Shown: one piece after another, positions 4,241 to 29,490 of the stretch | How positions within the stretch are numbered: position 1 is the first letter of the stretch | How the letters are laid out: every line of letters starts with the position of its first letter | From: Caldilineaceae bacterium SB0675_bin_29 | GTDB lineage: Bacteria > Chloroflexota > Anaerolineae > Caldilineales > Caldilineaceae | NCBI GenBank assembly: GCA_009843665.1 | Contig: VYDA01000537.1 | Location: 533 to 41,908 of the forward strand | Length of the DNA stretch: 41,376 nucleotides | Direction of reading: 5' to 3' | The notes under the pieces: generated by a model | What the model was told of the DNA's origin: nothing | Seen by the model: only the letters and a program-made list of their open reading frames with translations | Database searches by the model: none | Program-made: the position numbers and the translations under genes

Positions 4241-5155
4241 CTACAGGGCGCCGGCCTGAATTCCCTTCGTATACCGGGCAACCGTGCCGGCGTTCTTCCA
4301 GCGTCCCTGCACCATGACGGCCTGAGCGGGCGCGCCGGCTGCGGTCATCCTCTGTGCCAGGCCCACGCGGCCGGAGTGTCCGGAGAACTGATCCCCCAGG
4401 CCTGCAGCTGCGGCCGCTGCCTTCACCCTGCGGGCAATCGTCGATTCACTCATGCCAAAAACGGAGTCTTCAGCGCCGGCGCCGTTGCGGATCGCATCGA
4501 GGGCCCGCACTGTGGACGCCGTGATCGCCACGACCTCCCATTCACCTTCCTGGTCGGTCTTCGAGCGCGCGACCCGGACGCGCCCCGATCCGTCGGCGGC
4601 GATCTCCACGTCGCCCCAAATTAGGGCGACCGCCTCGGAGCGGCGCAGGCCTCCATCACTCAAAACACTGCACAGCGCGATATCGACTTGGCCGCGCGCA
4701 GTTGCATAATCGGGCGCTTCAGGAACGCCGCGGCGCCCCGTACGGGGCAACATGGCGGTCGCGCGGATCGCATCCAGCGCGGGCGCATCGAGGGCGGAGG
4801 CCTGAGCCTGGGTCTGCCCGTACTGGCGGCTGATCTCCTTCAATGCCATTCTCACAACCGGGCTGCTGCAGGGATTGTCCACGTCGGCGGCGGCGCGGTG
4901 CCCTGCCGAGATTGCCGCCGCGGCCAACCGGATCGTCGCGACCGACTTCCCCTCTTCGGCCAGCATGGCAAGGTAGTTCGCGACCGTTTCGGGCGTGGCC
5001 GGCATTACGCGGCTGGGGCCTACGACTTGGCAGAACCGATCCCAAGCGGCAACGTAAGCGCGCCGGGTATTGTCTGAGTAGGCGACGGCGATGGCACGGC
5101 GGGCCTGTTCGTGGACTTCGGCAATGACAACCGTGCGTTTCTGATCTGTCTGCAT
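4241..5155 (-). CDS. Tyrosine recombinase / integrase
   Basis: The 304-residue protein carries the full catalytic set of tyrosine recombinases: Arg171 (GGLRRSEAVAL), Lys199 (ARSKTDQEG), His260 and Arg263 (SGHSGRVG), Trp286 (GRWKN) and nucleophile Tyr295 (ARYTK). Residues 20-110 form the helical SAM-like core-binding domain. It should catalyse site-specific strand exchange to integrate or excise DNA, most likely the surrounding element. The ATG at 5155 follows GGGGAAG at good spacing. Two decayed relatives lie at 3305-3420 and 11044-11173, so the locus has taken in related elements repeatedly. No tRNA gene or clear attachment site is visible next to it. Confidence 0.9.
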   Translation of the reverse strand: MQTDQKRTVVIAEVHEQARRAIAVAYSDNTRRAYVAAWDRFCQVVGPSRVMPATPETVANYLAMLAEEGKSVATIRLAAAAISAGHRAAADVDNPCSSPVVRMALKEISRQYGQTQAQASALDAPALDAIRATAMLPRTGRRGVPEAPDYATARGQVDIALCSVLSDGGLRRSEAVALIWGDVEIAADGSGRVRVARSKTDQEGEWEVVAITASTVRALDAIRNGAGAEDSVFGMSESTIARRVKAAAAAAGLGDQFSGHSGRVGLAQRMTAAGAPAQAVMVQGRWKNAGTVARYTKGIQAGAL

Positions 5156-6349: not shown

Positions 6350-6547
6350 ATGAACAAGAAAAAACCGTTGGAGTTGCGCCGCACGGCAGCGATCTCCACG
6401 TCGGTTACGCCCAGCCAGAAAGAGCGCGTCCGGTCGGCGGCATACTACCGCGAGCAAATCCCGGCCGACTTCGTGCGAACTGTGGTGCTGGAAGCCGTGG
6501 AGAAGGCCGAGAGAGAACAGGCCAGACGGGAGAGGGCCAGTAAGTGA
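6350..6547 (+). CDS. Small ribbon-helix-helix-like DNA-binding protein
   Basis: This 65-residue basic protein opens with a strand-like segment (ELRRTAAISTSVTPSQKERV), then two helices (RSAAYYREQIPADFVRTVVLEAVEKAERE), the plan of small ribbon-helix-helix repressors. It is the first gene of the replication operon, so control of copy number or of its own promoter is the likely job. The ATG at 6350 follows AAAGGAACAGAG. Its stop overlaps the GTG of the next gene by four bases (GTGA), implying translational coupling. Fold assignment is from pattern only. Confidence 0.6.
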   Translation: MNKKKPLELRRTAAISTSVTPSQKERVRSAAYYREQIPADFVRTVVLEAVEKAEREQARRERASK

Positions 6548-7731
6548 GTATAGCGGACCGCATCGCCGGCGCCCTCGGCGCCCGCAAGGCGGGCGGCTGG
6601 TGGCGCACGTCTACGGCGCACTGTCACGGCGGCGATACCGCCGACGGCCTCGCCTTCCGATCTCCTGACGATGACCCCGACAAACTGATCGTTCGCTGCT
6701 ACTCGCGGGACTGCCACGAAACTTTGGAGGGCCGCAACCGTGCCCGCGACAACCTGCGCGCCGCGGCCGGACTTCCTCCCTGGCAGCCTTCGAGGGCGTA
6801 CAGCAGCGCACAGGCGGTCCAGGACGGCCAGAAACAGCGCAAGGGCAGTGGACTACCCTACAAGCGCCAAAACGCCGTCACGGACGGCCCCAGACAGCCT
6901 GTGACGGCGCCAGATGTCCTGCAGGGACACTTCCAGGCGCCGGTTGGCGCCAACAAAAGCGCTGAGAGACGTTCTGAGCGAAGTTCCGCTCGCAATCGCA
7001 ACGGCGATTCGGCCGCATGGGGCGCGCATATGCTGCCCTGGGACGATGACGCCGGCTGCCATTCCCACGCCGTGGCCTGTCCTGAATGCGGCAAGCCGGA
7101 CGCCCTGATCGCGTGGACACTGGCCGATCATCCCTTCCCCTACTGCGGCCTGGCCCTGAAGTGCAGCTGCGCCCTGTCCTATGACCAGCTGCACAAGCAT
7201 GTCGCCGCTCAGCTGGCGGCCAAGGGCTACGCATGGCGGCAACAGGCCTTCTATACGCTGCCCGGCGGACGAAGGCGCGCAAGGGTGCGAATCGACCCGG
7301 GCAAGTCTGTTTTCTGGGATACAGCCGAAGGCAGAGGCGCAACCGCAGGCTACGCGCCGGCCTTTTGGAACTCTCGGCGCGGTGTCCGTGCAGACTGCGG
7401 GCGCGCCCTAATCGTCGAGGGAGAGAAGGCGGCGGCGGCTTGCGTATCTGCCGGCATTGACGCGCAACTGGCTGTTTATAGCGTAGGTGGCATGGCCGCT
7501 TTCAAGAGCGCCGACTTCGCAGCCTTCGGCAACGGCTGCGAAGTTACGATATGGCCGGACAATCACGCTGAAGGCAAGGCGGCCGGGAATGTTGCGACCG
7601 CACGGCTGGCAGCCCTCGGCGCCGGCATTCGGATTGTGAGTGTAGTCGCCTTGCCGGAGAAGGGTGACGCCGCCGATATAGCAGCCGCAGAGATACGCAA
7701 ACGAATTCACAGCGCAAGGAAAATCGCATGA
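6544..7731 (+). CDS. Toprim-domain plasmid/phage primase
   Basis: The 395-residue protein has an N-terminal Cys/His segment (residues 18-60, with CHGGDTADGLAF and RCYSRDCHE) resembling the zinc domain of primase-like proteins. A second zinc-ribbon-like part follows near residues 178-220 (CPECGKPD and CSCALSYDQL). A Toprim domain occupies about residues 285-385: ALIVEGEKAA gives the catalytic glutamate and EVTIWPDNHAEG the acidic motif. It should make RNA primers for element replication. The GTG start overlaps the upstream stop, and its own stop overlaps the ATG of the helicase-like gene. The middle (residues 80-170) is poorly conserved-looking and rich in Arg/Ser. Confidence 0.8.
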   Translation: MSIADRIAGALGARKAGGWWRTSTAHCHGGDTADGLAFRSPDDDPDKLIVRCYSRDCHETLEGRNRARDNLRAAAGLPPWQPSRAYSSAQAVQDGQKQRKGSGLPYKRQNAVTDGPRQPVTAPDVLQGHFQAPVGANKSAERRSERSSARNRNGDSAAWGAHMLPWDDDAGCHSHAVACPECGKPDALIAWTLADHPFPYCGLALKCSCALSYDQLHKHVAAQLAAKGYAWRQQAFYTLPGGRRRARVRIDPGKSVFWDTAEGRGATAGYAPAFWNSRRGVRADCGRALIVEGEKAAAACVSAGIDAQLAVYSVGGMAAFKSADFAAFGNGCEVTIWPDNHAEGKAAGNVATARLAALGAGIRIVSVVALPEKGDAADIAAAEIRKRIHSARKIA

Positions 7732-8972
7732 GCAATCGGAATGGAACCGAGGCGGCCGCCGTCGAATACGGTCAGTTGGCCTCCAACTTTGCAAACACGC
7801 TGAAGGCGTGGAACAGCAACCCGTCCATAGGCAACCGACAACAGTTAGAGCAGTTGCGGGCCCGCATTGACGGGGAGCTGGCCAACAACACAGACGAAGT
7901 GGACAGCGACGCGCTGGCCGCTGCGCTGGCCGATGAGAAGAAGCGCGCGGACACGCTGCAGGCAATGGCCGCAATGATTGGAGAATTGCTGGATTCACCG
8001 GGACCGTCGAGCGCGGGATTGGACATTCTGGGTACGCACGATCCGAACCCGGACCCATTGACCTGGTTTGTGGCGTCGGGAGATCCAGCCCAGAACGGTT
8101 TCGGATGGATGCCGGACGCTACGGTTTCGGTGATGAGTGGCCCCGGAATGTCGGGCAAAAGCAGGATTGCGTTGCAACTGGCGGTCGCGACCGCGACAGG
8201 CGCGGCCGACTTTATCTTGCCGTCTGGCAAAAAGCGACCGCTGGCATTATGCGCTCCACAGGTGTTGATAGAAGGGCCGGTCGTCTATGCGGCGTGGGAG
8301 ACGCGCAAGCTGGCTTGGCAGAATCGCTTGGCGGCGGTATGCAGGGACGCCGGCGCCGACACCTGGACACTGCTAGACGAGCGGCTGCGCTATGTGAACA
8401 TGAAACCGACCGGCGGACTGTGGGGCGCCGAGCATGGAAAACACACCAGTACGGTAGGTTTTTGGTTGCCTGGCAGTCTGGAGATGATGCGCTATGCCGC
8501 GGAGTTCGGGGCGCGGTTGTTGATCATCGACCCGCTGGCCGGCGCCTTCATGCAAAACGAGAATGACCGCGCGCTGGTGCGTGCGTTTCTGTCGGCGCTC
8601 GACCAGTGGTGCGAAGACAACAACTGTGCAGTGCTGATCATATCGCACCCGGCCAAGCACGGGGACGATGCACAGTCGGGCAGTTCCGATTGGCGCAACG
8701 GCGTACAGGCCGTATGGGATATGTCCGCCGCGCGGGTGAAGGAAGGGACCAAATCAATACCCGCGCCGAACGGAGAGCGGTGTCTGCGCCTGGATAAGGT
8801 GAACGAGGCATCCGATCGCGCACCAAAAATCTATCTGCAGTGGGACAGCGGTCGCTTCGTGGAAGTGGAACCGCCAGAGGGCGCCGACGAGAGGCAGATG
8901 ATCGGCGCTCAGGCCGAGACGACCAGCACGGGCAAAACGCGGAGAAAACGCACTGATGGAAAGCAGACCTGA
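7728..8972 (+). CDS. RepA-like AAA/RecA-fold ATPase (replicative helicase type)
   Basis: The 414-residue protein has a RecA-type ATPase core: Walker A GPGMSGKSR (about residues 138-146), Walker B LLIIDPLAGAF near 265-275, then NCAVLIISHPAKHG with the sensor histidine, followed by SSDWRNGVQAVWDM. This is the pattern of the AAA_25/RepA family that unwinds DNA in plasmid and phage replication, and it fits its place right after the primase. Residues 1-100 are helical and may mediate oligomer contacts. The ATG overlaps the primase stop (ATGA), and the 3' end overlaps the next gene by 17 bases. Helicase activity is inferred from family and context. Confidence 0.8.
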   Translation: MSNRNGTEAAAVEYGQLASNFANTLKAWNSNPSIGNRQQLEQLRARIDGELANNTDEVDSDALAAALADEKKRADTLQAMAAMIGELLDSPGPSSAGLDILGTHDPNPDPLTWFVASGDPAQNGFGWMPDATVSVMSGPGMSGKSRIALQLAVATATGAADFILPSGKKRPLALCAPQVLIEGPVVYAAWETRKLAWQNRLAAVCRDAGADTWTLLDERLRYVNMKPTGGLWGAEHGKHTSTVGFWLPGSLEMMRYAAEFGARLLIIDPLAGAFMQNENDRALVRAFLSALDQWCEDNNCAVLIISHPAKHGDDAQSGSSDWRNGVQAVWDMSAARVKEGTKSIPAPNGERCLRLDKVNEASDRAPKIYLQWDSGRFVEVEPPEGADERQMIGAQAETTSTGKTRRKRTDGKQT

Positions 8973-10623
8973 TTTCGAGAACGCATGGGACGATCTGGCC
9001 AACAGAGTAGCGGACGACCAGGGACTAGCGGGTGACGAAACGCTCCCGACGCCGGCGGACGTTGCCACCGCACTGGGAGAGGTCGGGATGGCGAGGGCAA
9101 GAGAGAAGTACCGACTCCGGTTTTCCGCTCTGTACGATCTGGTGAAGAAGGAGTACCCGGAAGATCGGCCCGACCTGTTCCCGCAATCCGACCCATCGAA
9201 CCCGCCCGCCAGATGGCACAGCCTGGATATGGAATCTGCCCTGTGGGTCGAGGGTCTGCCGGTATCAGGAATGCTGATCAACGCGGACGGGGAGATCGAC
9301 AGGCGGCTGACCGTCGGCCTGCAAATGTTGAATCTGATCGTGCTCCTCGTAGGCCCGGAGGACACCCTTCGTTCCTTGGGGTCGAAAGATGATCAGCCCC
9401 TGGGGGCGGAGGATAATCTGATTGCAGGCTTCGAAGCGGTGCATATGATCTGGCAGTCTGCCGATCCAGCCAGGCGCGCGGGCCTGGAACACCCCCTCAA
9501 GCCGCTGTTAGCTGGATGGCTGAATCGGCCTGAGGTAATACAGCCCGATCTGGACAAGGGCGGCCGACCCCAAACAAAAGCCTTTATGCCGGATGGATTG
9601 TTCCCGGGGCAACCCTATTCTATACCCGCGCAGCTGCGCAGCGACAACGGGGGCGAACAACTCCCAATCTTGGGGAAAATGGAGAGAGACGGTGAGCAAC
9701 TACCCCTGTTGGCCGATATTCTGGATGATGCCGATCTACCGATCGCGCCCCTGCTGTTGGCGAAGGCCGCAGGATTTCACGGCCTCCAGCCGGGACGCGG
9801 CGCTCGCCTCGACAAACGTATTCTGATTTTCTCACTATTGGAAATGCCCTTAAATCAGCGCAGGCCCGGCGGCCGTTATGAGCTGCGGCGTCCCTTGCGC
9901 TTTTGGCGCGATTTACTATGGCCAACACGCGATGGCAAATCAAGTTATCGACCAGTCAAGCACAAACAAGCGCTGCGAGATGCACTGACCGCGATCAACT
10001 TGGCAGAGATAATAATGCCGGACGGTAGCAGTTGGATCCCTGTCGTTCGCCGTGGAATCCCTGATCTGGATAGCCTGGATTCAGAAGTAATTATACAGAT
10101 CGAGTTGCCATCCGGATCGGACAGAGGGCCTCAAGTTGACAAGGGAGTTTTGGCAGTGGCCGGTGTTGTAAGCGATCCTGCTTTCGATCTGGAATTAGGC
10201 CTCGCGTATCTATGGGATGAGGCGAAGCGCCGCAATGGAGGCTATCGGGTATATGCCACGCGACCCGAAGTTATACGCAACAAGCAGGGACACATAATGG
10301 ACGCGGCCGGCCATGTAATAGTCGAGAGGAAGAAACCGGTTACGCGGTGGGATCATCCGCGGGCAGTGCGGACTGGGCGCATGGAACGTAACCCGGCAGC
10401 AGATAGAGTGCGAGTGCTGGACAGAGAAGCACGGCGACGGCTTGCATACGGATCAGGAAACAGCAAACGGCCGGATCAGCTTTCACGCGACCGTGCCGCG
10501 ACCGACAAGAGGCTGGCTGGCATTGAGAGCGACGGCCGGATCCTCATTGAGCGGGATGCGGTCGATCTGCGAAACGGCGGTGACGGGTGGCGGATTCTGG
10601 AAGTGTGGTCGGCCGATGCTTGA
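8956..10623 (+). CDS. Large unrecognised protein, candidate replication initiator
   Basis: I do not recognise this 555-residue protein. It is the last gene of the coupled replication operon, overlaps the helicase gene by 17 bases, and ends one base before five 22-bp iterons. Residues 1-110 are acidic and helical. Residues 280-400 (RILIFSLLEMPLNQRRPGG, then RFWRDLLWP and KQALRDALTAINLAEI) could form winged-helix-like folds. Residues 400-440 form a long strand region, and 440-520 are very basic. A DNA-binding initiator that recognises the iterons is the simplest reading, resting on position and charge rather than homology. A structural role in the element is an alternative. Confidence 0.7.
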   Translation: MESRPDFENAWDDLANRVADDQGLAGDETLPTPADVATALGEVGMARAREKYRLRFSALYDLVKKEYPEDRPDLFPQSDPSNPPARWHSLDMESALWVEGLPVSGMLINADGEIDRRLTVGLQMLNLIVLLVGPEDTLRSLGSKDDQPLGAEDNLIAGFEAVHMIWQSADPARRAGLEHPLKPLLAGWLNRPEVIQPDLDKGGRPQTKAFMPDGLFPGQPYSIPAQLRSDNGGEQLPILGKMERDGEQLPLLADILDDADLPIAPLLLAKAAGFHGLQPGRGARLDKRILIFSLLEMPLNQRRPGGRYELRRPLRFWRDLLWPTRDGKSSYRPVKHKQALRDALTAINLAEIIMPDGSSWIPVVRRGIPDLDSLDSEVIIQIELPSGSDRGPQVDKGVLAVAGVVSDPAFDLELGLAYLWDEAKRRNGGYRVYATRPEVIRNKQGHIMDAAGHVIVERKKPVTRWDHPRAVRTGRMERNPAADRVRVLDREARRRLAYGSGNSKRPDQLSRDRAATDKRLAGIESDGRILIERDAVDLRNGGDGWRILEVWSADA

Positions 10624-10624
10624 A

Positions 10625-10734
10625 TGTTCTACCCTGTCAATTTCAGTGTTCTACCCTGTCAACTCCAGTGTTCTACCCTGTCAACTCCAGTGTTCTACCC
10701 TGTCAATTCCAATGTTCTACCCTGTCAATTTTTC
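10625..10734 (+). repeat. Five tandem 22-bp iterons, candidate replication origin
   Basis: Copies begin at 10625, 10647, 10669, 10691 and 10713, an exact 22-base period or about two helical turns. All share the 16-base core TGTTCTACCCTGTCAA; only the last six bases vary (TTTCAG, CTCCAG, CTCCAG, TTCCAA, TTTTTC). Direct repeats phased at about 22 bases beside replication genes are the hallmark of iteron-controlled plasmid origins. The complement of each core carries TTGACA, so minus-strand promoter elements are a lesser alternative. A T/A-richer segment and two hairpins follow directly. Confidence 0.85.
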
Positions 10735-10778
10735 CCATTCTTACCAGAGGAAAAACTACTTAGCACAGAAGAACAGAA

Positions 10779-10840
10779 GGGACAGAGAGTCAGTATTCTC
10801 TGTCCCCTTGGCGCTTTTGCGGCTTTGGGCCGCAGCGCCA
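10779..10840 (+). terminator. Two adjacent hairpins after the iterons
   Basis: The first hairpin has 10-bp arms GGGACAGAGA (10779-10788) and TCTCTGTCCC (10797-10806) with an eight-base loop. The second pairs TGGCGC and TGCGGC (10809-10823, with a ttt bulge) with GCCGCA and GCGCCA (10829-10840). They may end transcription of the replication operon or be structural parts of the origin. No T-tract follows, which weakens a simple terminator reading. Confidence 0.5.
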
Positions 10841-12457: not shown

Positions 12458-12663
12458 CCATGGAACGGCGAGCGGCATGGCTCCACGAAGATAGAAGCAG
12501 GTCGGGCTGATCTATGCGTTTGAGCGGAAGGTTGAGCCGGGCCAAGTGAGGACAATTGCGGATGCTGAGATGGAACTGGTTGACGCCGAGCGAAACGATG
12601 GATTAGATCGTCGGGGTATTTCTGAGTGGAAATCCTAGAACTGTCCGAAGATTAGACAACCCT
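12458..12663. other. No gene seen
   Basis: Short open frames only, without recognisable products or ribosome-binding sites. I see nothing further. Confidence 0.4.
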
Positions 12664-12939
12664 GTGAATCAGTACATTCCGCACTTCATCGCTCTGCTCG
12701 CCGGCGGGCTGGTCGCCTATGCGACGGCCAGTTATATTTTCGTCATGCTGGAGGGTGAGAGAATATCCTCGCGAGTCAAGATAGCCGTTGTCGTCTTTGT
12801 GATGGCCGGCAGTTCGGGGTTGATTGCCTTCCTGTTTCGAGAGCTGGCATTCGAGATTGTGATGTTCTACGCGCTCGGCTTCACCTTCATGCTGGTTCTG
12901 TTCAGTATGGGAGGCCGCTCCCCAGGCGGTGACAGATGA
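12664..12939 (+). CDS. Small integral membrane protein, three helices
   Basis: From the GTG at 12664 a 91-residue protein is encoded with three clear hydrophobic segments, near residues 7-28, 38-58 and 63-85. Short charged loops lie between them (LEGERISSRVK, FRELAFE). The family is not recognised. No strong ribosome-binding site is visible, but the regular membrane topology argues that the frame is or was a gene. Confidence 0.5.
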   Translation: MNQYIPHFIALLAGGLVAYATASYIFVMLEGERISSRVKIAVVVFVMAGSSGLIAFLFRELAFEIVMFYALGFTFMLVLFSMGGRSPGGDR

Positions 12940-13056
12940 ACCTGGCTTCCAATATGGGAGAATCTGCGGCTTGGTCCTATCGTGACAGAGTCGGGATAGC
13001 TTGCGAGCGATAAAGCGAGGAACAGGGTTGTTATGGGGACGCCGCGATGGGGTTGA

Positions 13057-13161
13057 CCACAGACTGAAGGGCAAATCGGGGCAGAAGTCGCCCGGGCGAT
13101 ATTGCTTGGATTTGCAATCATCTTCCCGCTCCTTGTCATCTTTGTCTCCCAGTGGAACTGA
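13057..13161 (+). pseudogene. C-terminal membrane-segment fragment
   Basis: An open frame without start encodes ARAILLGFAIIFPLLVIFVSQWN before its stop at 13159-13161. This is a typical C-terminal transmembrane helix with no gene body ahead of it. It overlaps the start of the next ORF by ten bases. I read it as the tail of a decayed membrane-protein gene. Confidence 0.4.
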
Positions 13162-13361
13162 CCGAGCAGCCTTCAGAAAATAACGCAGAGCCACGTGGAA
13201 AGGCTAGAGCGATCGCATCACGGTTCCTGGAAGAGATGGAACTGCATCAGACCCAGCAAATTGCAAACGAGCTGCTACTTGCAGCTCGCCATGAGGAAGG
13301 CCATCGCCTGGCAGGTGTTTGCCGGCATCTGGCTGCAATCACCATATCGTTGGAACCGTGA
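13152..13361 (+). CDS. Small hypothetical protein (coupled pair, first gene)
   Basis: A GTG at 13152 opens a 69-residue, mostly helical protein (KARAIASRFLEEMELHQTQQIANELLLAARHEEG) of unknown family. Its stop overlaps the GTG of the next small ORF as GTGA, the same arrangement as in the replication operon. Such coupling of two very small genes is common in toxin-antitoxin and phage regulatory pairs, but no family motif supports that here. Confidence 0.45.
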   Translation: MELTEQPSENNAEPRGKARAIASRFLEEMELHQTQQIANELLLAARHEEGHRLAGVCRHLAAITISLEP

Positions 13362-13537
13362 AAGAAAAGTACGCCGAATTCTTCACCGACAAGGTAAGAA
13401 GTGAACTGGCCGCAGTGAAGTTAAGCGCAGCAGAGAGGCCTTTCACATATAAGCAACGATATATCGGCCGCATTCCCAAAAAAGAGCCTCAACAGAAGGA
13501 CCCGAATTGGAGCTGGGTCCGGGATGATATCGTGTAA
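13358..13537 (+). CDS. Small hypothetical protein (coupled pair, second gene)
   Basis: Starting at the GTG that overlaps the previous stop, this ORF encodes 59 residues. It has an amphipathic N-terminal helix (KEKYAEFFTDKVRSELAAVK) and a basic, tryptophan-containing tail (RYIGRIPKKEPQQKDPNWSW). I recognise no family. It ends 116 bases before the terminase leader repeat, and the bases between show no gene. Confidence 0.4.
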   Translation: MKEKYAEFFTDKVRSELAAVKLSAAERPFTYKQRYIGRIPKKEPQQKDPNWSWVRDDIV

Positions 13538-13653
13538 CATCTGAAAGGAACGTCTCGTTGTCCACCGCCATCACCGCAACCGACGCCGAACGCATTCAGG
13601 CTGCGGCCACCCGTCGTACCTACGATCACGGTCCGGAAATCACGGAAGTGGCA

Positions 13654-13752
13654 GGGGGCGCACAGTACAGGCGCAGTGGCAAAATAACCGCTCCTTGCTG
13701 GTTTCATACAAAGCGCACACAAAGGCGCATAGAAGCGGAGAAGAGGCATATT
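13654..13752 (+). repeat. Conserved leader of terminase-like gene (copy 2)
   Basis: Nearly identical to 493-591, with only scattered substitutions over about 99 bases. It keeps the purine-rich run before the ATG even though the gene behind it is dead. The frame opened by TTG at 13558 (TATDAERIQAAATRRTYDHG) reads into this leader without a stop, which suggests another decayed gene was joined to its 5' side. Confidence 0.75.
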
Positions 13753-14278
13753 ATGGCAAAAAACAAGGAGAACACGGGCGCACAGAACGCCATCGTACCG
13801 GCAGACAAGTGCCAGCTACAACGACAACCGGACGAATCGGAGAAAGCGCACAGAGCCCGGGCTGCATATTGCAAGCTGGAGCCGTCGTAGCGCACGATCG
13901 CAGCCGCCTACCGCGTTTTCGAAGACATGGAGCCGGACGCCGAGGTGAAAGTGCTGGGGTACTTCGACGCCTGGACCAAGCGGTTTCGCTGAAAGGAGTA
14001 CGAGATCGCCTGGGACGCCTACTTCAACGACATTGTATCCCCCCAGAAACGAACAGATGGCAGCCGTACACTGGGAGACAGTTGAGCAGGCCGAGCAGCT
14101 GCAAATTCCTATTGAACAGGAGATCGAACGGCTGAAAGAATCAGGGCAGCGCCGCCGCTTGTAGCCCGGCGCCAGCGAAGACAGAATAGCCGACCTTTCA
14201 CACCTGGCGACAGCACTCAAAGCCGCATCAGCCGCCCGCCTTGCAGCGCTGGAAGGAATAGCCCCTGACCTTGACTGA
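13753..14278 (+). pseudogene. Terminase-like gene copy with three nonsense changes
   Basis: This full-length copy of the 592-1119 gene is disabled. Its CAG codon at 13888 became TAG, and two tryptophan codons became stops (TGG to TGA near 13991, TGG to TAG near 14162). All three are C-to-T or G-to-A transitions. A small deletion near 14040 (tatccccccag against gtagccacccgcag) also shifts the frame. The final stop context is conserved with copy 1. Confidence 0.85.
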
Positions 14279-14315
14279 TCCGACATCGGCGCCACAACCT
14301 CTCAAGGCGCATAGC

Positions 14316-14582
14316 ATGAAAATTGAGATCCACCCGAAAGATCGAAATGCTAAGCACCGCTAGCTGCGCCAAGCTGGTCAGATCGCTGACGTCGAGGCCT
14401 ACATCAAGCAAAGCACGGCCAGCCTGTCGGCCGCGCCCGAGGAACGGCTGCGCCGCCTCATCGTGCAACTGCCGGACAGCAACTACCGCCGCTTCAAGCA
14501 GCTGGCCGCCGAGCAGGGCGTCACCATGTCCGAGTTGTGCCGGGCCTGGGTGGAAGAGGCGCTGGCGGAGCATTTTGATTAA
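14316..14582 (+). pseudogene. Ribbon-helix-helix/CopG-like gene with early stop
   Basis: The frame starts MKIEIHPKDRNAKHR, meets TAG at 14361-14363, then continues for 72 codons. These include LIVQLPDSNYRRFKQLAAEQGVT and MSELCRAWVEEALAEHF, a convincing strand-helix-helix repressor pattern. No good internal start follows the stop, so I call it a nonsense pseudogene; readthrough is not excluded. It lies 37 bases after the terminase pseudogene and 13 bases before the HEPN-like gene, where an antitoxin would sit. Confidence 0.55.
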
Positions 14583-15258: not shown

Positions 15259-16341
15259 ATGAAGAGTTTTTTCCGATTCGTCTTGCGTCTTTTCCTCTTT
15301 GCCGCGTTCGCCGCCGTACTCATCCTTCTCATCGGGGTCTTTCTCCAGGCGCAAACCCTGTCGACGCAGGTCGACGAGCTGACGGCGCGCGTACAACGGC
15401 TCGAGGAGGCCAACGCCGCCCGGCCCGCGCCCGCCGCGCAGCCGACCCGAACGTCCTCACCCGAGCCGACGGCAACGCGCACGCACAGGCCGACGAACAC
15501 GCCTGCGCCGACCAACACACCCGCGCCAACTAATACGCCCGGGCCGACCGCAACGCCCAGCCTCACGCGCACACCCAGACCGACCAATACGCCCACACCG
15601 ACGCGCGCGCGCGTCCAGCCCACGGCTACACCGTCGAACGGGGGCAACCTGAGCAGCATCAGAATCGAGCCCGAAAATCGCTGCTCGCACTACGATTCGG
15701 ACCTCTATCCCTACTCCCAGAGCGTCGAGCCTCATATCGTCAACCAGCAGGGCGGCCGCATCTACGGCCCGTACACCGGCACCTACTTTGCCAGCATCCG
15801 CGAGACGGACATCGAGCACATCGTCGCCCGCAGCGAAGCGCACGACAGCGGCCTCTGCGCCGCCAGCAGCGCCACCCGGCGCAACTTCGCCAACGACCTG
15901 CTCAACCTCACCCTGGCCAGCCCCAGCGTAAACAGGCACCAGAAGGTCGACAAGGACCTGGCGCAGTGGCTGCCTGTCCTGAACCAGTGCTGGTACGTGA
16001 ACCGGGTCGTGCTCGTCAAGCGCAAGTACAATCTCTCGATGGACCAGGCCGAAGCCGACACCGCGCGCCGCGTGCTGGTCAGGTGCTCCAGCATGCAGAT
16101 GCAGTTCACCGACCCGGGCTCAGCGCCGCCGCTAGCCAATATGCCGACATCTGTGCCGCCGCCGCAGAGCGGCAGCGGGACTGACTGTGCCAGGGATCCG
16201 CTCGGCTGCTACGATGACAACAACAACGGTAGAATCACCTGCGCCGAAGCCCGCCGGCACGGCATCGCGCCGGTGCCGCGCGGTCATCCGGCCTACCAGT
16301 ACATGCGAGACGGCGACAGCGACGGCGTTGTGTGTGAGTGA
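15259..16341 (+). CDS. Membrane-anchored HNH nuclease with excalibur domain
   Basis: The 360-residue protein begins with a signal anchor (residues 4-30), a short coiled coil (TLSTQVDELTARVQRLEE) and a long Pro/Thr linker to about residue 125. Residues 170-275 hold an exported-nuclease core of HNH/DUF1524 type. DIEHIVARSEAHDSGLC carries the catalytic histidine, followed by RNFANDLLNLTLASPSVNRHQK and a motif around DLAQWLP. The last 45 residues form an excalibur calcium-binding domain ending DGDSDGVVCE with paired cysteines. It should act outside the cell on nucleic acid, for nutrient use or competition. An N-terminal relic of a paralog lies at 11170-11271. Confidence 0.85.
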   Translation: MKSFFRFVLRLFLFAAFAAVLILLIGVFLQAQTLSTQVDELTARVQRLEEANAARPAPAAQPTRTSSPEPTATRTHRPTNTPAPTNTPAPTNTPGPTATPSLTRTPRPTNTPTPTRARVQPTATPSNGGNLSSIRIEPENRCSHYDSDLYPYSQSVEPHIVNQQGGRIYGPYTGTYFASIRETDIEHIVARSEAHDSGLCAASSATRRNFANDLLNLTLASPSVNRHQKVDKDLAQWLPVLNQCWYVNRVVLVKRKYNLSMDQAEADTARRVLVRCSSMQMQFTDPGSAPPLANMPTSVPPPQSGSGTDCARDPLGCYDDNNNGRITCAEARRHGIAPVPRGHPAYQYMRDGDSDGVVCE

Positions 16342-16756: not shown

Positions 16757-19700
16757 CTACACCATGGCCTCGGTCGAAAGCTCAGCCTGCCGCAGAACGA
16801 GGTCCGTTGCCTCCGGCGCGAGGTCAGGCGGATAGCCGTATCTGGCTAGTAAGCGGCGCACGCGGCGTCGCAGATCGGCACGCACGGACTCGCGTTCCGT
16901 CCAGTCGAGCGTTGGCATATCTTTGACCATCTCCGTTAGTTTTCTGGCCATGAGTCGAAGAACGTCATTCTGCATAACCTCCCTGGCAGACTCGTTATCC
17001 GCCAGGGCATCGTATAGCGCGATCTCCTCAGTGCTCAGCCCTAGTTTCTCGCCGCGCTCCTGCGCTTCTCGCAGGTGCTTGGCTAGGTCAATGAGATGTG
17101 TGATCATCTCGGCGGTCGTAATCGCCTTGTTCGTATACCGACGTATGGCCTCTTCAAGCGCCTCACGGAATTTCTGACTTTGTACGATATTCGAACGCTC
17201 GGTGATCCGGATCTGGTCGTTCAGTAGCTTTCGCAGTGTCTCCAAGGCCAGGTTCTTCTGCTCCATTGCGGCGACTCGCCCGAGGAATTCGTCGCTGAGA
17301 ATGTCGATGCGGACTTCCTCAAAGCCTGCAACTGCGAACAGATCGATCACCCTGCCTGCCTCGACCGCCCCGCCGATGACCTGACGCACTGCGTTGTTGA
17401 TGTCGTTCTGTCTGTCGCCGACACCACTGCCATTGGCGTCGTCCGCCAAACGCTTGCGGATCATCACCACAATGTGCTGAAAAAACGCAAGATGCGGCGC
17501 AATCCGTTCCGTCTCCGGCCGCGGCACGGAAAGCGCGAACGCGTCCGACAACTCCTTGACCAGCGTCCTCAGACGTTTCCAGCCGTCGTCTTGGCCGAAT
17601 ACATGGTCGATAGCGCCAAGATATACAGGCAGCGCTTGCTTCGGATCGCCTTGTAGCGCCTGCTCGTAATCGCAGCCGTGGAAAAACGATTTCAGCTTTT
17701 CGAAGGCCGATTCCATGGCTGGCACTGCTTCATCTTGCACATCTTTCACTGCCTCGCCCGTCCCGCCGGCCTGTGTGTAGATGGCCAGCGCATCGGCCAG
17801 CCGATCTGACAGACCAAGCAGGTCCACGATCAGGCCGCCAGGCTTCTCGCCATAGACCCGGTTGACGCGAGCAATCGCTTGCATAAGGTTGTGCGTTGCC
17901 AGCGGCTTGTCCAAGTACATAGTGTGCGCCGGTGGACAGTCGAAGCCTGTCAACCACATATCACACACGATCACGAGACGCAGATCATCGCTGGGATTTT
18001 TGAAGCGTTCGGCCAGCCGTTTACGGGCCGCCTTTGTGCGCACGTGACTGCGCAACGGCTCCTCATCACGATGATCCCCGGTGACGACGACCTTTATCGC
18101 CCCTCGCTCGTCATCCGGATCGTGCCATGCTGGGCGCAGCGCCCGGATCGCGTCGTACAGCCGAGCGGCAATATCCCGACTCATCGTCACGACCATCGCT
18201 TTGCCCTCTATCACGGCGCGGCGTTCTTCCCAGTGATCAACAACAAATTCTGCCAGCCGTTCTATGCGTTCCTGCGCGCCGGCAAGCGTCTTCAAAGGCA
18301 CGCTGATATACTGTTCGGCGTCCTTTCCCTCAGCATCCGCGGTGGCTGCTTTCTCCAACTCCTCTTCCGCTGCTTTCGCGCCCGCCTCGTCTATCGTCAA
18401 CTTGATAATCCGGGCCTCGTAGTAGAGTGGCTTCGTGGCTCCATCTTCAACGGCCTGGCGCATGTCGTATATGTCCGCGTAATCCCCGAAGACATGTCTC
18501 GTGTTTTTGTCGTCTCCCTCCAGCGGCGTTCCGGTGAAGGCTACAAAGGTCGCGTTAGGCAAGGCCAGGCGCATCCAGCGGGCACCGCCTTTTACGAAAC
18601 CGTACTGGCTGCGGTGAGCCTCGTCAGCCATCACAACGACATTCTCACGCTTCGAAATGACGCCGTGCGCCTCGGTGAACTTCTGGATCGTGGTGAACAC
18701 CACTCCGCCCGAAGGGAGGTCCAGCAACTCCTTGAGGTGCTCGCGGGTTTCAGCCTGGACCGGTCGGTCGCCCAGCAGAGCACGGCCAGCCGCGAAGGTG
18801 TCAAATAGCTGGTCATCCAGATCGTTGCGATCTGTGATCATGACGATGGTAGGGTTCTTCATTCGAAGATCGCGCATCAACGTCCCAGCCAACATCAGCA
18901 TGGTGATCGACTTGCCCGCGCCCTGTGTGTGCCAAATCACACCGGCGCGTCCGTCGCCGTGGCCCGACGATGACTTCATCCGATCGAGCACGCTTGCCCG
19001 CATCTTTCGCATCGCTCGAAACTGATGGTAGCCCGCTATCTTCTTGACGATCTCGCCGCGTTCGTCCTCCTCAAAGAGGACGCAGTTACGCAGGTAGTCC
19101 ACTAAGGCTTCTGGAGCGAACAGCCCTCGTATCAGCCCCTCTAGCGTGGATGCGCCCCCTTCCGGCGGACGCCACGGCATGAACCTGTTGCGGTTGCTTG
19201 TGAGCGCGCCAACGCGAGTCAGCAATCCGTCTGACACTACCAGCGCCTCATTCATTACGAACAGGTCGGGGACCAACTCCTTGTAGCGGCTCAGTTGATT
19301 GATGGCAACGTCCAGGCTCGCTTCAGCGACGACGGGGGCTTTGAGTTCGATCACTGCGATCGGAAGGCCATTCAGAAAAACCGTCAGGTCTGGCCGAAAG
19401 CGCTTCCCTGATGGGTCGGTAACGGTAAGTTGCCGTACGACCAATATGTCGTTCTCTTCAGGCTTCTCGAAATCGACAACGTAGGCACGGTCGCCGCGCA
19501 TCTCCCCGCTGGCAGGATCTTGATACTCTACCTCGACACCTTGAGTGAGCAGGCTGTGGAACCAGCGGTTATTCTGGATGAGGGTTGGATGCGGTGGGTT
19601 TGAGAGGTCGCGCACAACGCCTTCGATAGTGTCATGCGGAAACTTCGAGTTGATCCGGTGCAGTGCAGACTCGAGGCGGCCCTTCAGGATGACTTGCAAC

Positions 19701-19816
19701 GTGCCGTCTCGCTCCCCTGCATCATCGATCTCTGTTCCACGTTTGGTAGTTATGCCTAGCGCGCTGAAATGCACGGAGGCAACATCCTCGACGAGCCTTT
19801 CTGTGGGCAAAGACAT
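16757..19816 (-). CDS. hsdR: Type I restriction enzyme R subunit
   Basis: The roughly 1019-residue protein has the full type I R-subunit plan. Residues 140-165 carry the nuclease motif (RPDLTVFLNGL, then AVIELKAP, a PD-ExK site). The Walker A motif is IWHTQGAGKS near residue 300 and the DEAH box MADEAHRSQYG near 400. Helicase motifs and IARVNR follow around residue 650, and the C-terminal part is helical. It translocates DNA by ATP hydrolysis and cuts at a distance from unmethylated sites. The frame could open at a TTG at 19822 overlapping the previous stop, but the ATG at 19816 is better spaced from AAAGG. It is the last gene of the operon. Confidence 0.95.
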   Translation of the reverse strand: MSLPTERLVEDVASVHFSALGITTKRGTEIDDAGERDGTLQVILKGRLESALHRINSKFPHDTIEGVVRDLSNPPHPTLIQNNRWFHSLLTQGVEVEYQDPASGEMRGDRAYVVDFEKPEENDILVVRQLTVTDPSGKRFRPDLTVFLNGLPIAVIELKAPVVAEASLDVAINQLSRYKELVPDLFVMNEALVVSDGLLTRVGALTSNRNRFMPWRPPEGGASTLEGLIRGLFAPEALVDYLRNCVLFEEDERGEIVKKIAGYHQFRAMRKMRASVLDRMKSSSGHGDGRAGVIWHTQGAGKSITMLMLAGTLMRDLRMKNPTIVMITDRNDLDDQLFDTFAAGRALLGDRPVQAETREHLKELLDLPSGGVVFTTIQKFTEAHGVISKRENVVVMADEAHRSQYGFVKGGARWMRLALPNATFVAFTGTPLEGDDKNTRHVFGDYADIYDMRQAVEDGATKPLYYEARIIKLTIDEAGAKAAEEELEKAATADAEGKDAEQYISVPLKTLAGAQERIERLAEFVVDHWEERRAVIEGKAMVVTMSRDIAARLYDAIRALRPAWHDPDDERGAIKVVVTGDHRDEEPLRSHVRTKAARKRLAERFKNPSDDLRLVIVCDMWLTGFDCPPAHTMYLDKPLATHNLMQAIARVNRVYGEKPGGLIVDLLGLSDRLADALAIYTQAGGTGEAVKDVQDEAVPAMESAFEKLKSFFHGCDYEQALQGDPKQALPVYLGAIDHVFGQDDGWKRLRTLVKELSDAFALSVPRPETERIAPHLAFFQHIVVMIRKRLADDANGSGVGDRQNDINNAVRQVIGGAVEAGRVIDLFAVAGFEEVRIDILSDEFLGRVAAMEQKNLALETLRKLLNDQIRITERSNIVQSQKFREALEEAIRRYTNKAITTAEMITHLIDLAKHLREAQERGEKLGLSTEEIALYDALADNESAREVMQNDVLRLMARKLTEMVKDMPTLDWTERESVRADLRRRVRRLLARYGYPPDLAPEATDLVLRQAELSTEAMV

Positions 19817-19818
19817 AG

Positions 19819-20553
19819 TCAATTGCCTTTCTCCTCACTCTTTCCATTCTGTTCGTCGAGGCCCTCACCATCTCCCTCCCCATTGCGTGCGGCGATGAAC
19901 TCCTGCAGTGCAGCTCTGTACGCTGCAAGATCTGTGTAGAACAGAACTTGGCTAGGGATCAGTTCCACTTCGCCCAACCTGATCGGCTCATAGTCGCGGT
20001 CAATCTCCTCATTAAATTCCGGATGATCCTCGTAGTAGACGCGTGCTCCTGGAGTCTGACTACTTGCTTCGCGATGGGTGCGGTAGAGGAAAGCAACGAT
20101 AGTGTCCGCCGCCTGCGCTGCCAGCGTAGCTTGCCGCAGGCCCAGTCGGGCGGCGAAGGCGTCGCGACCGTGGGCGACCATTCCGTAATTATTTCGCAGT
20201 TCACACAGCCCCTGAATTGTCTGCAACATTCCTCGTATTGTCTTCTCCACCGAGTCCCTAGTCTTCGCCGGTGTAGGATTGTCGTCGGGCAATAATTTCA
20301 GGCGATTTGTTGTTTCCCTCAACAGCTTCGGCGAGTCCCAACTTGTACTAGCTGGTTGACCTATGTCTGCGAGTACCGTCTTGCAAACAGTATCGACCAA
20401 CCCCTTCGAAAGATCGAACGCGAAATCGGGAACACTTTCCAACGCATTTTCTATCGCCTCAATGTGCTGTTCAATAGGTTCCGCGACCGGACCGTCCAAG
20501 ATTGCGGAGCGAGCGCCGACCATTTGAAAGCGGGGCGGAGAGGATTCAGCCAT
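19819..20553 (-). CDS. Abi-C (abortive infection C-terminal) HEPN-like protein
   Basis: The 244-residue protein sits inside the type I operon between hsdS and hsdR. Residues 110-165 (MLQTIQGLCELRNNYGMVAHG, then RQATLAAQAADTIVAFLYR) match the abortive-infection C-terminal family, in which LRNxxG..AHG is the hallmark. That helical bundle is related to HEPN proteins, some of which are ribonucleases. The start overlaps the hsdS stop by eight bases (ATGGCTGA), so it is translated with the operon. It may be a backup that kills or arrests the cell when restriction fails; this is inferred from family and position. Confidence 0.8.
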   Translation of the reverse strand: MAESSPPRFQMVGARSAILDGPVAEPIEQHIEAIENALESVPDFAFDLSKGLVDTVCKTVLADIGQPASTSWDSPKLLRETTNRLKLLPDDNPTPAKTRDSVEKTIRGMLQTIQGLCELRNNYGMVAHGRDAFAARLGLRQATLAAQAADTIVAFLYRTHREASSQTPGARVYYEDHPEFNEEIDRDYEPIRLGEVELIPSQVLFYTDLAAYRAALQEFIAARNGEGDGEGLDEQNGKSEEKGN

Positions 20554-21757
20554 CAGCAGCCTCTACGGTAACTTGCCCGCTCAGCAAGTGAGGGAGGATG
20601 TAATCGCGCGTTTCAGCCAGACAGTCATTCTCTTTGACACAAGCGGTGAGTAGGCCGAATAGAGGATCAACCGCCTGCCCATACGCCGCAACTACCTCAT
20701 CAGGCGGCTTCATGATCGGGATTGGACGAAAGTTCTTTTTGCTGATCTCGGGAAATGTTGTGCCGCCCGCCCGAGCTCTTATCGTCTCCATCGAACTGCG
20801 TGCCCAGTTCAGGATGAAGGCAGGCGGTAGCGGACCGTCACAGATCATAGCGATAAACCCTTGGTTGACCGCAGTCGGCACGCGTGAAATTGCTAGATAG
20901 CCAATCGGTGCCCGCGAAGACATTAGAACGGTACCGACAGGAAGCAGGCCAGAGCTAATTTGGTCCACCCCCGCGTTCGTGATGTGGCGCTCCGTATCAA
21001 GCAATACCGGATGCGAGAGGCGCGACAAATCCTTTGGCGTTGCCCAACGATGCTCTCCTCCATCCCAGTAATCCGGCTCCTTTGTACTTGGTGTGCTACC
21101 TCCCTTCACAGTAACAACATCGCCGATGTTCTCCACCTCCCAGCCTTCCGGCACAGGGCCGATCGCGGAATCGACGAAGTTGGTGGGGAGGGCATCGAAA
21201 ACGTGCTGAGGCATGGAAGGGAAGGAACCGGCCCCGGCAGCTTTCGCTTTCATCGGCTCGAAGTCCACGAACCACGCCCGATAGACGGCTCGCGCCAACT
21301 GCTCCAACGTCTGGGCTGTATGACGGTTGTGATCGATCTTATCGTCAAGCGCGCCGAGCACGCCAGCGATGGCCTCCCAAGAATCTTCGTTAGGCAACCA
21401 AAGAGTCCGTGCGTGAGCGGCGTCTCGATTCAGCCCCGGTACGGCACTATCACTGTTCATCTTCTCTAGGCCGGCGCTTTTCAACGCGTAATACATGAAA
21501 CGCGCCTCATCTAAATTTTCGAAATCGATGAAAAAAGTTGTGTCTATCGGCCAGCATGGAATTTTCGAAAGGTGAACTACACCGACCGTCCCCTTACGCC
21601 CAATTACAACTGTTGGTCCATAAGTAAAGGCCTCGTTATGGTAGCCAATGATCCCGTTGGACCCGTATACAGGGATGCTGCCAGAAATCCTCTTGGCCTC
21701 GGGCAATCCTTTCCCGTAAGAAAGCGGTGCGAGTTCTTCTACTGTAAATTCATTCAT
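20546..21757 (-). CDS. hsdS: Type I restriction specificity subunit
   Basis: The 403-residue protein has the two target-recognition domains and conserved helices of HsdS. The first half ends with GVLGALDDKIDHNRHTAQTLEQ and AVYRAWFVDFEP, the classic central conserved helix. The second opens with WEVENIGDVVTVKGGSTPS and ends LLSGQVTVE. It selects the two halves of the DNA site for methylation and cleavage. The ATG overlaps the hsdM stop by eight bases. The first recognition domain (residues 1-125) is shorter than usual, close to the compact MNEF...L(S)YGKGLP type. Confidence 0.93.
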   Translation of the reverse strand: MNEFTVEELAPLSYGKGLPEAKRISGSIPVYGSNGIIGYHNEAFTYGPTVVIGRKGTVGVVHLSKIPCWPIDTTFFIDFENLDEARFMYYALKSAGLEKMNSDSAVPGLNRDAAHARTLWLPNEDSWEAIAGVLGALDDKIDHNRHTAQTLEQLARAVYRAWFVDFEPMKAKAAGAGSFPSMPQHVFDALPTNFVDSAIGPVPEGWEVENIGDVVTVKGGSTPSTKEPDYWDGGEHRWATPKDLSRLSHPVLLDTERHITNAGVDQISSGLLPVGTVLMSSRAPIGYLAISRVPTAVNQGFIAMICDGPLPPAFILNWARSSMETIRARAGGTTFPEISKKNFRPIPIMKPPDEVVAAYGQAVDPLFGLLTACVKENDCLAETRDYILPHLLSGQVTVEAADG

Positions 21758-23408
21758 AGTATTGAAGTCCCGAAAGTTGTCTCCTGACTTCCTCCGCTAG
21801 CCGCTCCCCTTCTGAAAAGGAATCTTCTAACTCCCCCAGGATGTGGGGAAACTTAACCGAGAACGGCTCTTCGTCTCCCCTTCGTTCTTCTGCGCCAACG
21901 TAGCGGCCGGGGTTGAGTACGAAGCCTCTATCCTTGATGCCTTCGACGGTCTCAGCTTTGCAAAAACCGGGGGTGTCGTGATAAAGCCACTCCCCGTGCT
22001 TAGCTTGGTCCCACCAATCTGGCGCGGGCTCACCACGCCACTGGCGGTAGGCGTAGACGATGCGACCGATGTCTGAATCGTGGCCAGGATCATCCTCCCC
22101 ACCGGCGGTAAGCTCACGCTGGGTGCGATTCAGCATAGTGCCGAGCTCGCGAGCATCAACGAACAGCGTCTCTCCTTCACGGTCACGCCCGCCATATTTC
22201 AGGTTCCCGCCTGTTTTGTCCCGGGTGAGAAACCACAGGCACGCGGGGATGGCGGTTGTGAGAAACAGTTGCGCTGGCAGAGCGACGATTGCGTCGACCA
22301 GGTCTGCCTCAACGATGTGCTGGCGGATCTCCCCTTCCCTTCCTGTGTTCGAAGAAAGCGATCCATTGGCCATGACAAAGCCCGCGACCCCGCCGCCTCT
22401 TCCGTTAGGCGGCGCCAGGTGGTGGATGAAGTGCTGGATCCAGGCGTAGTTAGCATTGCTGTTCGGAGGCGTCCCGTAGCGCCAGCGGACATCTTCCTGA
22501 AGCAGGTCTCCTGACCAGTCAGAATCATTGAAGGGCGGATTCGCGAGAATATAATCGGCTTTGAGGTCCGGGTGGAGGTCTCTTAGGAAAGAATCAGCGG
22601 GTTGCGGCCCAAGATTGGCTTCAATGCCTCGGATGGCAAGATTCATATGGGCGAGCCGCCAAGTCGTTGGGTTCGACTCCTGACCGAAAATCGAGATATT
22701 GGTCTTCAGCCCGCCATGAGCTTTGACGAAATTTTCGGACTGGACAAACATGCCTGCCGAACCGCAGCAAGGGTCATACACCCGCCCTTCGTAGGGTTCG
22801 AGCATCTCCACAAGCAGGCGCACGATGGAGCGCGGCGTAAAGAATTCGCCGCCGCGTTTTCCCTCCGCCTGGGCGAACTTGCCCAAGAAGTATTCGTATA
22901 CGCGGCCTAACATATCACGCGCCCTAGACTGATCGTGCTTGAAACCGGCACCTGAGATCAGGTCGATCAGCTCTTTCATTTTCTGCGGTTCTATCCCCTT
23001 GCGGGCATAGTCACGCGAGAGCTTCCCTCTCAATTTCGCCGGGTTGTCTCGTTCAACGGCGTAGATTGCATCGTCAATGAGTGTGGCGATGTCTGTTCGC
23101 GCTGCCTGACTCTGCAGATGGCTCCAACGCGCCTCAGGTGGCACCCAGAAGACATGTTCTGCAGTGTACTCGTCACGATAGTCCAACAGGGATTGCAGTT
23201 GTTCTCCAGTAATCCCTTCCGCCTCCAACTCTCCTTTAAGTTTCTCATGACGCGCCTCGAAAGAGTCGGATATGTACTTCAAAAAGAGGAGGCCAAGGAC
23301 CACGTGCTTATACTCGGCTGAGTCGATTTGGCCACGCAGTTTGTCGGCGGCGTCCCAAAGAACTTTGGCGTAGGATAGGTCGGCGCTAAGTGTATCGGCG
23401 TTCGTCAT
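21750..23408 (-). CDS. hsdM: Type I restriction methyltransferase subunit
   Basis: The 552-residue protein is a type I N6-adenine methyltransferase. Its N-terminal helical domain (SYAKVLWDAADKLRGQID, then HVVLGLLFLKYISD) is followed by the AdoMet-binding motif YDPCCGSAGMFV and the catalytic ILANPPFND. I placed the start at 23408 because AGGA precedes that ATG at good spacing and the family N-terminus begins there; the frame stays open 120 bases further upstream without a better site. It is the first gene of hsdM-hsdS-abi-hsdR, so the modification subunit is translated first. Confidence 0.95.
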   Translation of the reverse strand: MTNADTLSADLSYAKVLWDAADKLRGQIDSAEYKHVVLGLLFLKYISDSFEARHEKLKGELEAEGITGEQLQSLLDYRDEYTAEHVFWVPPEARWSHLQSQAARTDIATLIDDAIYAVERDNPAKLRGKLSRDYARKGIEPQKMKELIDLISGAGFKHDQSRARDMLGRVYEYFLGKFAQAEGKRGGEFFTPRSIVRLLVEMLEPYEGRVYDPCCGSAGMFVQSENFVKAHGGLKTNISIFGQESNPTTWRLAHMNLAIRGIEANLGPQPADSFLRDLHPDLKADYILANPPFNDSDWSGDLLQEDVRWRYGTPPNSNANYAWIQHFIHHLAPPNGRGGGVAGFVMANGSLSSNTGREGEIRQHIVEADLVDAIVALPAQLFLTTAIPACLWFLTRDKTGGNLKYGGRDREGETLFVDARELGTMLNRTQRELTAGGEDDPGHDSDIGRIVYAYRQWRGEPAPDWWDQAKHGEWLYHDTPGFCKAETVEGIKDRGFVLNPGRYVGAEERRGDEEPFSVKFPHILGELEDSFSEGERLAEEVRRQLSGLQYYE

Positions 23409-24011
23409 AGCTATTCCTATTCGCTTTTTTCGGTCATCCCAAGCTTTCGGTTGGGGATTGGGCCGTAGTGTACCCGCTTGACAGCGGTTTTGCCAGTTCA
23501 GGGAGGCGTGGGCGGCCCCCGAGCGCAATCCGGCGGCGAACAGATAGCCTATGCTGACACCGGCACAACTGGTGGAACTCTGCTAACTGCTGGACCTTGG
23601 GGGAAGGCGGCCGAAACCTAGTGCGCGCAGTATGCGGCGGAAACGGGCGCAACACGCGATCCGGCTCATGGCCGATGAAGAGTACTGCATCATCGAGGAC
23701 GTAGACGGCGACTGGCGCCTAATCCCCCTGAAACGACGCCGTTTCGCGTCCTGGACTTGGCGGTCGGGTCCGGACTCTCCCACACGGGCGCTCTCAGGTG
23801 AAATCTGGACTTTACCGTTGCCGATCCTGGCAGTCCGCGGTGTCTGCGATAGGCCGATTAGCGCTCAGAGGGACTTCCGCCGCTAGGTCAGTCGACAGGC
23901 TGAGAGAAAGCGTCTTGTTGCCGTCTCCATAGCGCGTTCACTATTTCCGTCAGCACTTCCCGTCGCAACGTGCGGGGGCAGATCGGCGAGGTGCACCGCG
24001 TCCATGATCCC
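23409..24011. other. Mostly empty stretch with one doubtful ORF
   Basis: Upstream of hsdM there should be a promoter for the operon, but I see no clear -35/-10 pair. A plus-strand frame at 23632-23886 (84 codons, YCIIEDVDGDWRLIPLKRRR) has no family resemblance and only a weak start, so I do not call it a gene. Confidence 0.35.
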
Positions 24012-28263: not shown

Positions 28264-29022
28264 ATGCAAAGCAGAAAATGGACCAGGACGGCGATCTGCC
28301 TGGCTGCAACCTCAACATTCATCCTGACGGCCCTGTACTTCGTCGCTACCCCCTATATGACGTCCGCCGCCCTGGCAAACGAAACGACGACCGCTTCCGC
28401 CTCCACGCAGTCGGTAACCGTTGTCGGCGAAGGCGTAGTCAACATCGAACCGGACGTTGCCGCCGCCAGAATCGGCGTCGTCGTTCTCCGCTCAACCGTG
28501 AGAGAAGCCAGTTCTGAAGCCGGCGGGATCATGCAAGCGGTTAAGGCCGCCCTGCTCGCGCAGAACATCGAGGAGAAAGACATCCAGACCAGGCACTTCG
28601 ACATTTCCGCCGAGCGCTATGGTCCGGAGGGACTGCTGCAGGAGGACCAGGTGCAGTACCATGTCCGCAATATCGCCTTTGTCACCATTCGCGACCTGGA
28701 CAACATCGGCGGCGTACTCGATGCTGCCATTGGGGCCGGAGCCAACGACATCGGCAGCGTCAGATTCAGTCTGGAAAATCCGGCTGCCGTCGAGTCTGAG
28801 GCCCGTGCCATGGCCGTCGCCGATGCCCGCGCCAAAGCGGAGGAACTCGCCGACCTGATAGGCGTAAGTGTTGGTGAAGTGACCGAAATCAGCGAGATCA
28901 TCGGGCACGGCGGCGGATTCTTCAACAATAGCTTTTCCGAAATGGCCTTGGCCGACTCCGCCTTCAGCATCGGGGAGCTCACGCTGGCGATGCAACTCCA
29001 GGTCACATACAGGCTCCAGTAA
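28264..29022 (+). CDS. SIMPL-domain (DUF541) protein, exported
   Basis: The 252-residue protein has an N-terminal hydrophobic signal (residues 9-37), then a complete SIMPL domain. The opening strand is SVTVVGEGVVNIEPDVAAARIGV, the central parts are NIEEKDIQTRHFDISAER and DLDNIGGVLDAAIGAGANDI, and the conserved helix is EARAMAVADARAKAEELADL, followed by GVSVGEVTEI. SIMPL proteins are usually periplasmic or extracytoplasmic and assemble into rings in some bacteria; their ligand is unsettled. The ATG follows AAGGAGAACATCC. It is the intact partner of the frameshifted gene at 26332, about 1.9 kb upstream. Confidence 0.85.
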   Translation: MQSRKWTRTAICLAATSTFILTALYFVATPYMTSAALANETTTASASTQSVTVVGEGVVNIEPDVAAARIGVVVLRSTVREASSEAGGIMQAVKAALLAQNIEEKDIQTRHFDISAERYGPEGLLQEDQVQYHVRNIAFVTIRDLDNIGGVLDAAIGAGANDIGSVRFSLENPAAVESEARAMAVADARAKAEELADLIGVSVGEVTEISEIIGHGGGFFNNSFSEMALADSAFSIGELTLAMQLQVTYRLQ

Positions 29023-29464: not shown

Positions 29465-29490
29465 CGGTGAGACCAAATGGAGTCGTGCAT

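Follow-up and report, generated by a model that had tools for sequence, protein, structure and literature searches.

What is the function of a 555-residue protein that profile searches place in no family, encoded behind primase and helicase genes and directly followed by short direct repeats? The question was raised by a 41,376-nt stretch of DNA (positions 533-41,908 of contig VYDA01000537.1, assembly GCA_009843665.1, Caldilineaceae bacterium SB0675_bin_29), here called the window. The original prediction was an undescribed iteron-binding replication initiator. Array context, predicted fold, and co-divergence of iteron and protein all support it, and we consider it highly probable that the protein is the origin-binding, iteron-type initiator (Rep) of a plasmid-type replicon, DNA binding and replication being predicted functions.

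Gene organization of the replication module

The putative initiator gene, so named from fold and context, runs from ATG to TGA at 8956..10623 on the forward strand, open and intact over all 555 residues as first described. Upstream on the same strand, a GTG-started gene at 6544..7731 encodes a 395-residue, Toprim_3-type primase-like protein. It shares 4 nt (7728-7731) with the gene at 7728..8972 for a 414-residue RecA-like AAA_25 protein, apparently an IncQ RepA-type replicative helicase, whose reading frame, ending at 8972, overlaps the initiator gene by 17 nt. The two overlaps bear out the claim of coupling behind primase and ATPase genes, and the gene does adjoin the iterons, the array starting one base past its stop codon. 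The "very basic C-terminal third" once attributed to the protein was an overstatement, as residues 371-555 are mildly basic (33 Lys/Arg vs 30 Asp/Glu, pI 9.3). The sole clearly basic part is residues 440-555 (26 Lys/Arg vs 18 Asp/Glu, pI 10.9), and the protein overall has a slightly acidic pI of 5.8. Scans for sigma-70 promoters and terminators gave results near chance level.

The helicase matches Pfam AAA_25 (E=2.4e-22) and, among solved structures searched by sequence, a single PDB entry, 1g8y, 'regulatory protein RepA' (E=1.8e-4), the RSF1010 helicase. With RepA of the IncQ1 plasmid pMS260, in which repA overlaps repC in the same gene order as helicase and initiator here, it shares 26% identity over 210 columns, and it finds 9 of 72,556 records in a plasmid collection, several of them annotated as RepA-family helicases. 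The primase-like protein scores under the Pfam cut-off for Toprim_3 (E=5.9e-4) and matches PHROGs DNA primase families with E-values down to 7.7e-6.

A sequence family with a predicted Rep fold

Searches with the initiator agree with the earlier statement that it resembles no Rep family that can be named. Pfam and NCBIfam profiles returned no family, PHROGs a single weak one (E=0.076), and no match was found among the 72,556 plasmid records, 50,697 phage records, solved structures searched by sequence, or IMG/VR viral contigs (three queries). The Rep3_N profile (Rep_3, PF01051) is not matched by the initiator; one of 150 relatives does match it, and none from the genus. The IncQ RepC profile, PF06504, is matched by RepC proteins themselves but neither by the initiator nor by any of ten homologues scanned. 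When 23 homologues were aligned by hhalign to five IncQ RepC sequences, the score was 29.9, colinear over 147 columns and covering both of the winged helices described below, at a probability of only 7%; controls reached at most 19.6 in 60 column-shuffled alignments and 11.9 for a reversed RepC alignment. With the eight closest sequences alone, the probability was 0.3%. A remote similarity of this family to IncQ RepC is suggested by these sequence comparisons.

The full-length structural model is weak (pLDDT 54), with low confidence in places over the N-terminal part (residues 1-247, 8956..9696), and the C-terminal part was therefore folded alone. Even so, when the full-length model was compared by VIA-align, residues 259-387 had Pi and RepE as their top hits (Z 5.0-5.8). 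For residues 248-555 (308 residues), the best model had pLDDT 74 and pTM 0.71, the other four having pLDDT 45-64. The best model consists of two winged helices, predicted from models and fold comparison at residues 285-383 (9808..10104) and residues 480-549 (10393..10602). The best 40 of 998 chains aligned to it are all Pi or RepE/Rep-type initiators, with Z of 8.2-9.4 and alignments that span both winged helices (198-211 residues, rmsd 4.4-4.8). The row after these has Z 6.6, and RctB, which initiates replication of the second Vibrio chromosome, stands at 6.4. Foldseek gave no significant match for the full-length or C-terminal model (best E 0.17), nor any against viral structures; its two best rows for the C-terminal model were RepE54, with non-significant E-values. 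The structure prediction that had been proposed as a check thus returned winged-helix domains in the Rep arrangement, and neither it nor the homologues revealed an unrelated enzyme when one was looked for. These models support viewing the protein as a new sequence family that carries a known fold, rather than as a new fold.

Iterons and putative origin

The iteron array at 10625..10730 has a 22-bp period, 4.8 copies and 95% matches. Its core, TTCTACCCTGT, has five exact copies in the window, vs 0.01 expected. A genome-wide search with TGTTCTACCCTGTYR found six matches, five in the array and one in apparent coding sequence on another contig (C557). The iterons run on into an AT-rich stretch at 10700..10799, a candidate unwinding site, with 36-40% GC in 50-bp windows vs 58-66% in windows from 10400 to 10624. 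Within it, an ACCAGAG motif at 10743..10749 on the forward strand recurs near homologous arrays on either strand. Two hairpins follow, at 10779..10806 and 10809..10840; the folded stretch has z of -6.1 / -6.5 and is more stable than all of 200 shuffled versions on either strand. Rfam and tRNA scans of the window found nothing.

In 30 homologue loci, whose initiators are as little as about 20% identical, we determined which period was strongest in the 600 bp next to the initiator stop codon. A period of about 22 bp, or a multiple of it, exceeded threshold after 23 of the 30 homologues vs 2 of 430 other long-ORF ends in the same loci; the loci are related, so these and the following counts are not independent events. 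The seven misses include L028 (period 43, just below threshold), L044 (44-bp spacing, 0.61) and L024, where an array exists about 1.4 kb from the gene. An inverted-repeat score of at least 8 occurred within 300 bp of the stop at 21 of 30 homologues, as opposed to 46 of 431 control ends. The motif ACCAGAG or its complement was present near the stop at 13 of 30 (20 of 431). When the genes of 27 loci, several of them cut by contig ends, were clustered, the initiator cluster was represented in all 27, the helicase cluster in 20 and the primase cluster in 17. Primase and helicase genes precede even homologues of only about 20% identity. A pattern of homologues lying away from replication genes and iterons was sought in this survey of neighborhoods and did not emerge.

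Several other features of these loci were observed. In L044, positions 9200-10080 hold about 12 copies of a GCGTTAGCGCAAAACA-like repeat, spaced about 44 bp apart behind a SAR202 initiator, that the repeat finder had missed. Locus L035 (oriented 12499-13567) has a 319-bp tandem repeat of 3.4 copies behind another initiator; its unit seemingly combines a repeat of that replicon's own with a TTCTACCCTGT core resembling the window iteron, and the same genome, G001, has a close relative of the window initiator. The contig of the closest homologue carries a second primase-helicase-like gene (Toprim, DUF5906; L021:1665-3779).

Co-divergence of iteron and protein

Repeat sequences vary widely among loci. 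Over 24 loci, iteron similarity, crudely measured as the best circular shift on one strand, follows protein identity with rho 0.40, a value reached in none of 2000 permutations; L024, L044, L085, L086, L088 and L094 are omitted, no unit of about 22 bp being extractable from them. Five SAR202 paralogues in one MAG, 69-83% identical, form ten pairs with iteron similarity little above chance, 0.36-0.64 (95% null 0.55), vs 0.73-0.95 for seven cross-genome pairs whose proteins are 65-94% identical. By eye, the SAR202 repeats do have short common cores. Among the five SAR202 initiators, 21 of 37 positions in the predicted DNA-reading helices vary, vs 51 of 168 in the rest of the domain (one-sided p = 0.0025), a weak test because the helices are model-derived and the table of variability was viewed first. 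We suggest, tentatively and at a little under an even chance, that this family constitutes a large, naturally occurring collection of mutually orthogonal Rep-iteron pairs separated by incompatibility. Coexistence in one cell would then drive reading helix and repeat to change rapidly and in step.

Distribution and genomic context

Relatives of the initiator occur in 9 of 61 genomes near the source and in 8 of 46 genomes of the family, all of one genus. Across Chloroflexota they are rare, with 2 of 400 genomes, the source counted in. Among named genome records, seven loci were found, labelled Caldilineaceae, SAR202, Binatia and Gemmatimonadota; binning errors could account for the odd phylum labels. 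The Caldilineaceae bin5 and SAR202 bin90 records come from the sponge Aplysina aerophoba, according to PMC5649159. One SAR202 MAG has initiator matches on 11 contigs. The remaining named genome records presumably derive from sponges as well.

A 212-residue ParA-like ORF was found on five contigs, three of them rep-bearing, where some 10-12 kb separate it from rep. Copies of the window's SIMPL-sulfatase block (28264-31000) are 86-92% identical on seven other contigs, of which four also carry a rep match (G014:C18, G004:C102, G005:C89 and G012:C16); its closest copies are on other rep-bearing contigs. Three single-contig genomes have neither rep nor the ParA-like ORF, and their SIMPL-sulfatase copies are only 77-81% identical. 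The ParA-like ORFs and the shared block fit large plasmids, and the module could conceivably lie in an integrated element instead. Terminal overlap indicative of circularity was absent from seven of eight contigs checked. The exception, L043, has a 53-bp overlap that sits within a 24-bp repeat and proves nothing. This 15.9-kb contig, labelled Gemmatimonadota, encodes a serine resolvase, its title gives a coverage of 744, and it is possibly a high-copy plasmid.

Other features of the window are noted for completeness. Direct repeats of 670 bp (494-1163 and 13655-14322), 90% identical and 13.16 kb apart, flank the recombinase-primase-helicase-initiator-iteron block, and a similar pair flanks the block in G001; the repeats are too diverged to be taken for attachment sites. 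A second pair, of 662 bp and 95% identical, lies at 31600-32261 and 35506-36167. A protein with GmrSD_C (nuclease) and Excalibur domains is encoded at 15259-16341, and a type I restriction set (HsdR, S and M) at 16757-23528, whose R and S genes are separated by an ORF (19819-20553) with an Abi_C domain. Beside the restriction genes, at 23512-23727, is a decayed remnant of an initiator C-terminus with internal stops (E=5.6e-12), which we read as the trace of an earlier replicon.

Comparison with known replicons

The module resembles IncQ repBAC (RSF1010, pMS260) in that the helicase gene overlaps the initiator gene and the helicase is, by sequence, related to RepA. The candidate origin, with iterons, an AT-rich stretch and two hairpins, also recalls IncQ oriV; iterons, an A+T-rich region and two palindromes are described for IncQ-3 origins in PMC7557826. 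It differs in that the iterons lie directly behind the initiator gene, the primase is Toprim-like (by Toprim_3 similarity only) and not RepB, and the initiator, at 555 residues vs 281 for RepC, has no PF06504 match and weak profile similarity. With Rep_3 initiators (Pi, RepE of F, TrfA of RK2) the protein shares the predicted two-winged-helix fold, and the systems share adjacent direct repeats of about two helical turns with an AT-rich stretch beside them. Unlike them, it has no Rep3_N match, an extra 247-residue N-terminal part, and an insertion before the second winged helix that is lacking from short SAR202 versions, and its module brings its own helicase and primase. SGI1, an island with its own replicon, likewise appears to join recombinase and replication genes in one element (PMC7433901); for the window module, a large-plasmid context is more likely. 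On the models, then, the initiator appears to represent a new family adopting the known Rep fold; it may work as RepE or RepC does, yet fails both profile tests.

Proposed mechanism and alternatives

We propose that Rep uses its two C-terminal winged helices to bind the 22-bp iterons immediately downstream of its gene, with one Rep monomer per iteron, the winged helices occupying one major groove each and the two grooves being spaced by roughly two helical turns. Once bound, Rep would open the AT-rich stretch at 10700-10799 and recruit the co-translated IncQ-RepA-like helicase, and the co-translated Toprim primase would start new strands, for which the hairpins at 10779-10840 are possible sites. 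Copy number and incompatibility may also be set by the iterons. We infer all of these steps, from iteron binding, opening and helicase loading to hairpin priming and copy control.

Tandem winged helices with tandem repeats, taken alone, would also suit a DNA-binding regulator or a centromere-binding partition protein, the repeats being operator or centromere and replication starting elsewhere; generic winged-helix regulators are indeed present lower in the fold list. The fold match, however, takes in the two Rep domains in their proper order and outranks every other fold. Across homologues the gene comes after those for primase and helicase, and the repeats are found downstream of the operon rather than at the promoter. 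ParA-like genes, where found, are separate and usually some kilobases away. We regard such a role as very improbable. Alternatively, the module might serve to replicate a phage or a phage satellite and not a plasmid, as a tyrosine recombinase is encoded nearby on the reverse strand (4241..5155; Phage_integrase, E=1.9e-13), and helicase and primase have weak PHROGs relatives. The cluster of this recombinase covers six loci, and it lies near the module in some loci besides that of the window. Set against the lack of initiator relatives in phage records and IMG/VR, the ParA-like genes near five loci, Replic_Relax in a cluster of three SAR202 loci, and a non-phage gene block shared by large contigs, this origin seems unlikely.

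Pi and RepE work with host factors. So does TrfA of RK2 (PMC4980987). These fold neighbors lend some weight to a reading in which the protein is an initiator but drives ordinary theta replication with host DnaA, DnaB and DnaG, the primase and helicase being accessory. DnaA-box-like sites show no excess (13 vs 15.4 expected), with none up to 250 bp downstream of the iterons, and a dedicated helicase and primase are conserved alongside the initiator; we find dependence on host factors rather doubtful, though a real contender. An iteron-type initiator served by its own helicase and primase is the reading we prefer.

Significance

Through this protein, a central class of plasmid proteins gains an initiator family absent from the catalogues, and the finding points to plasmids in Chloroflexota, a subject for which a literature phrase search returned no paper. 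Its paralogous Rep-iteron pairs, some of them within one MAG, could show which residues govern recognition and how incompatibility evolves, and if the pairs are truly orthogonal, a specificity code would be readable from sequence. A vector for uncultured sponge symbionts might also be developed from the module.
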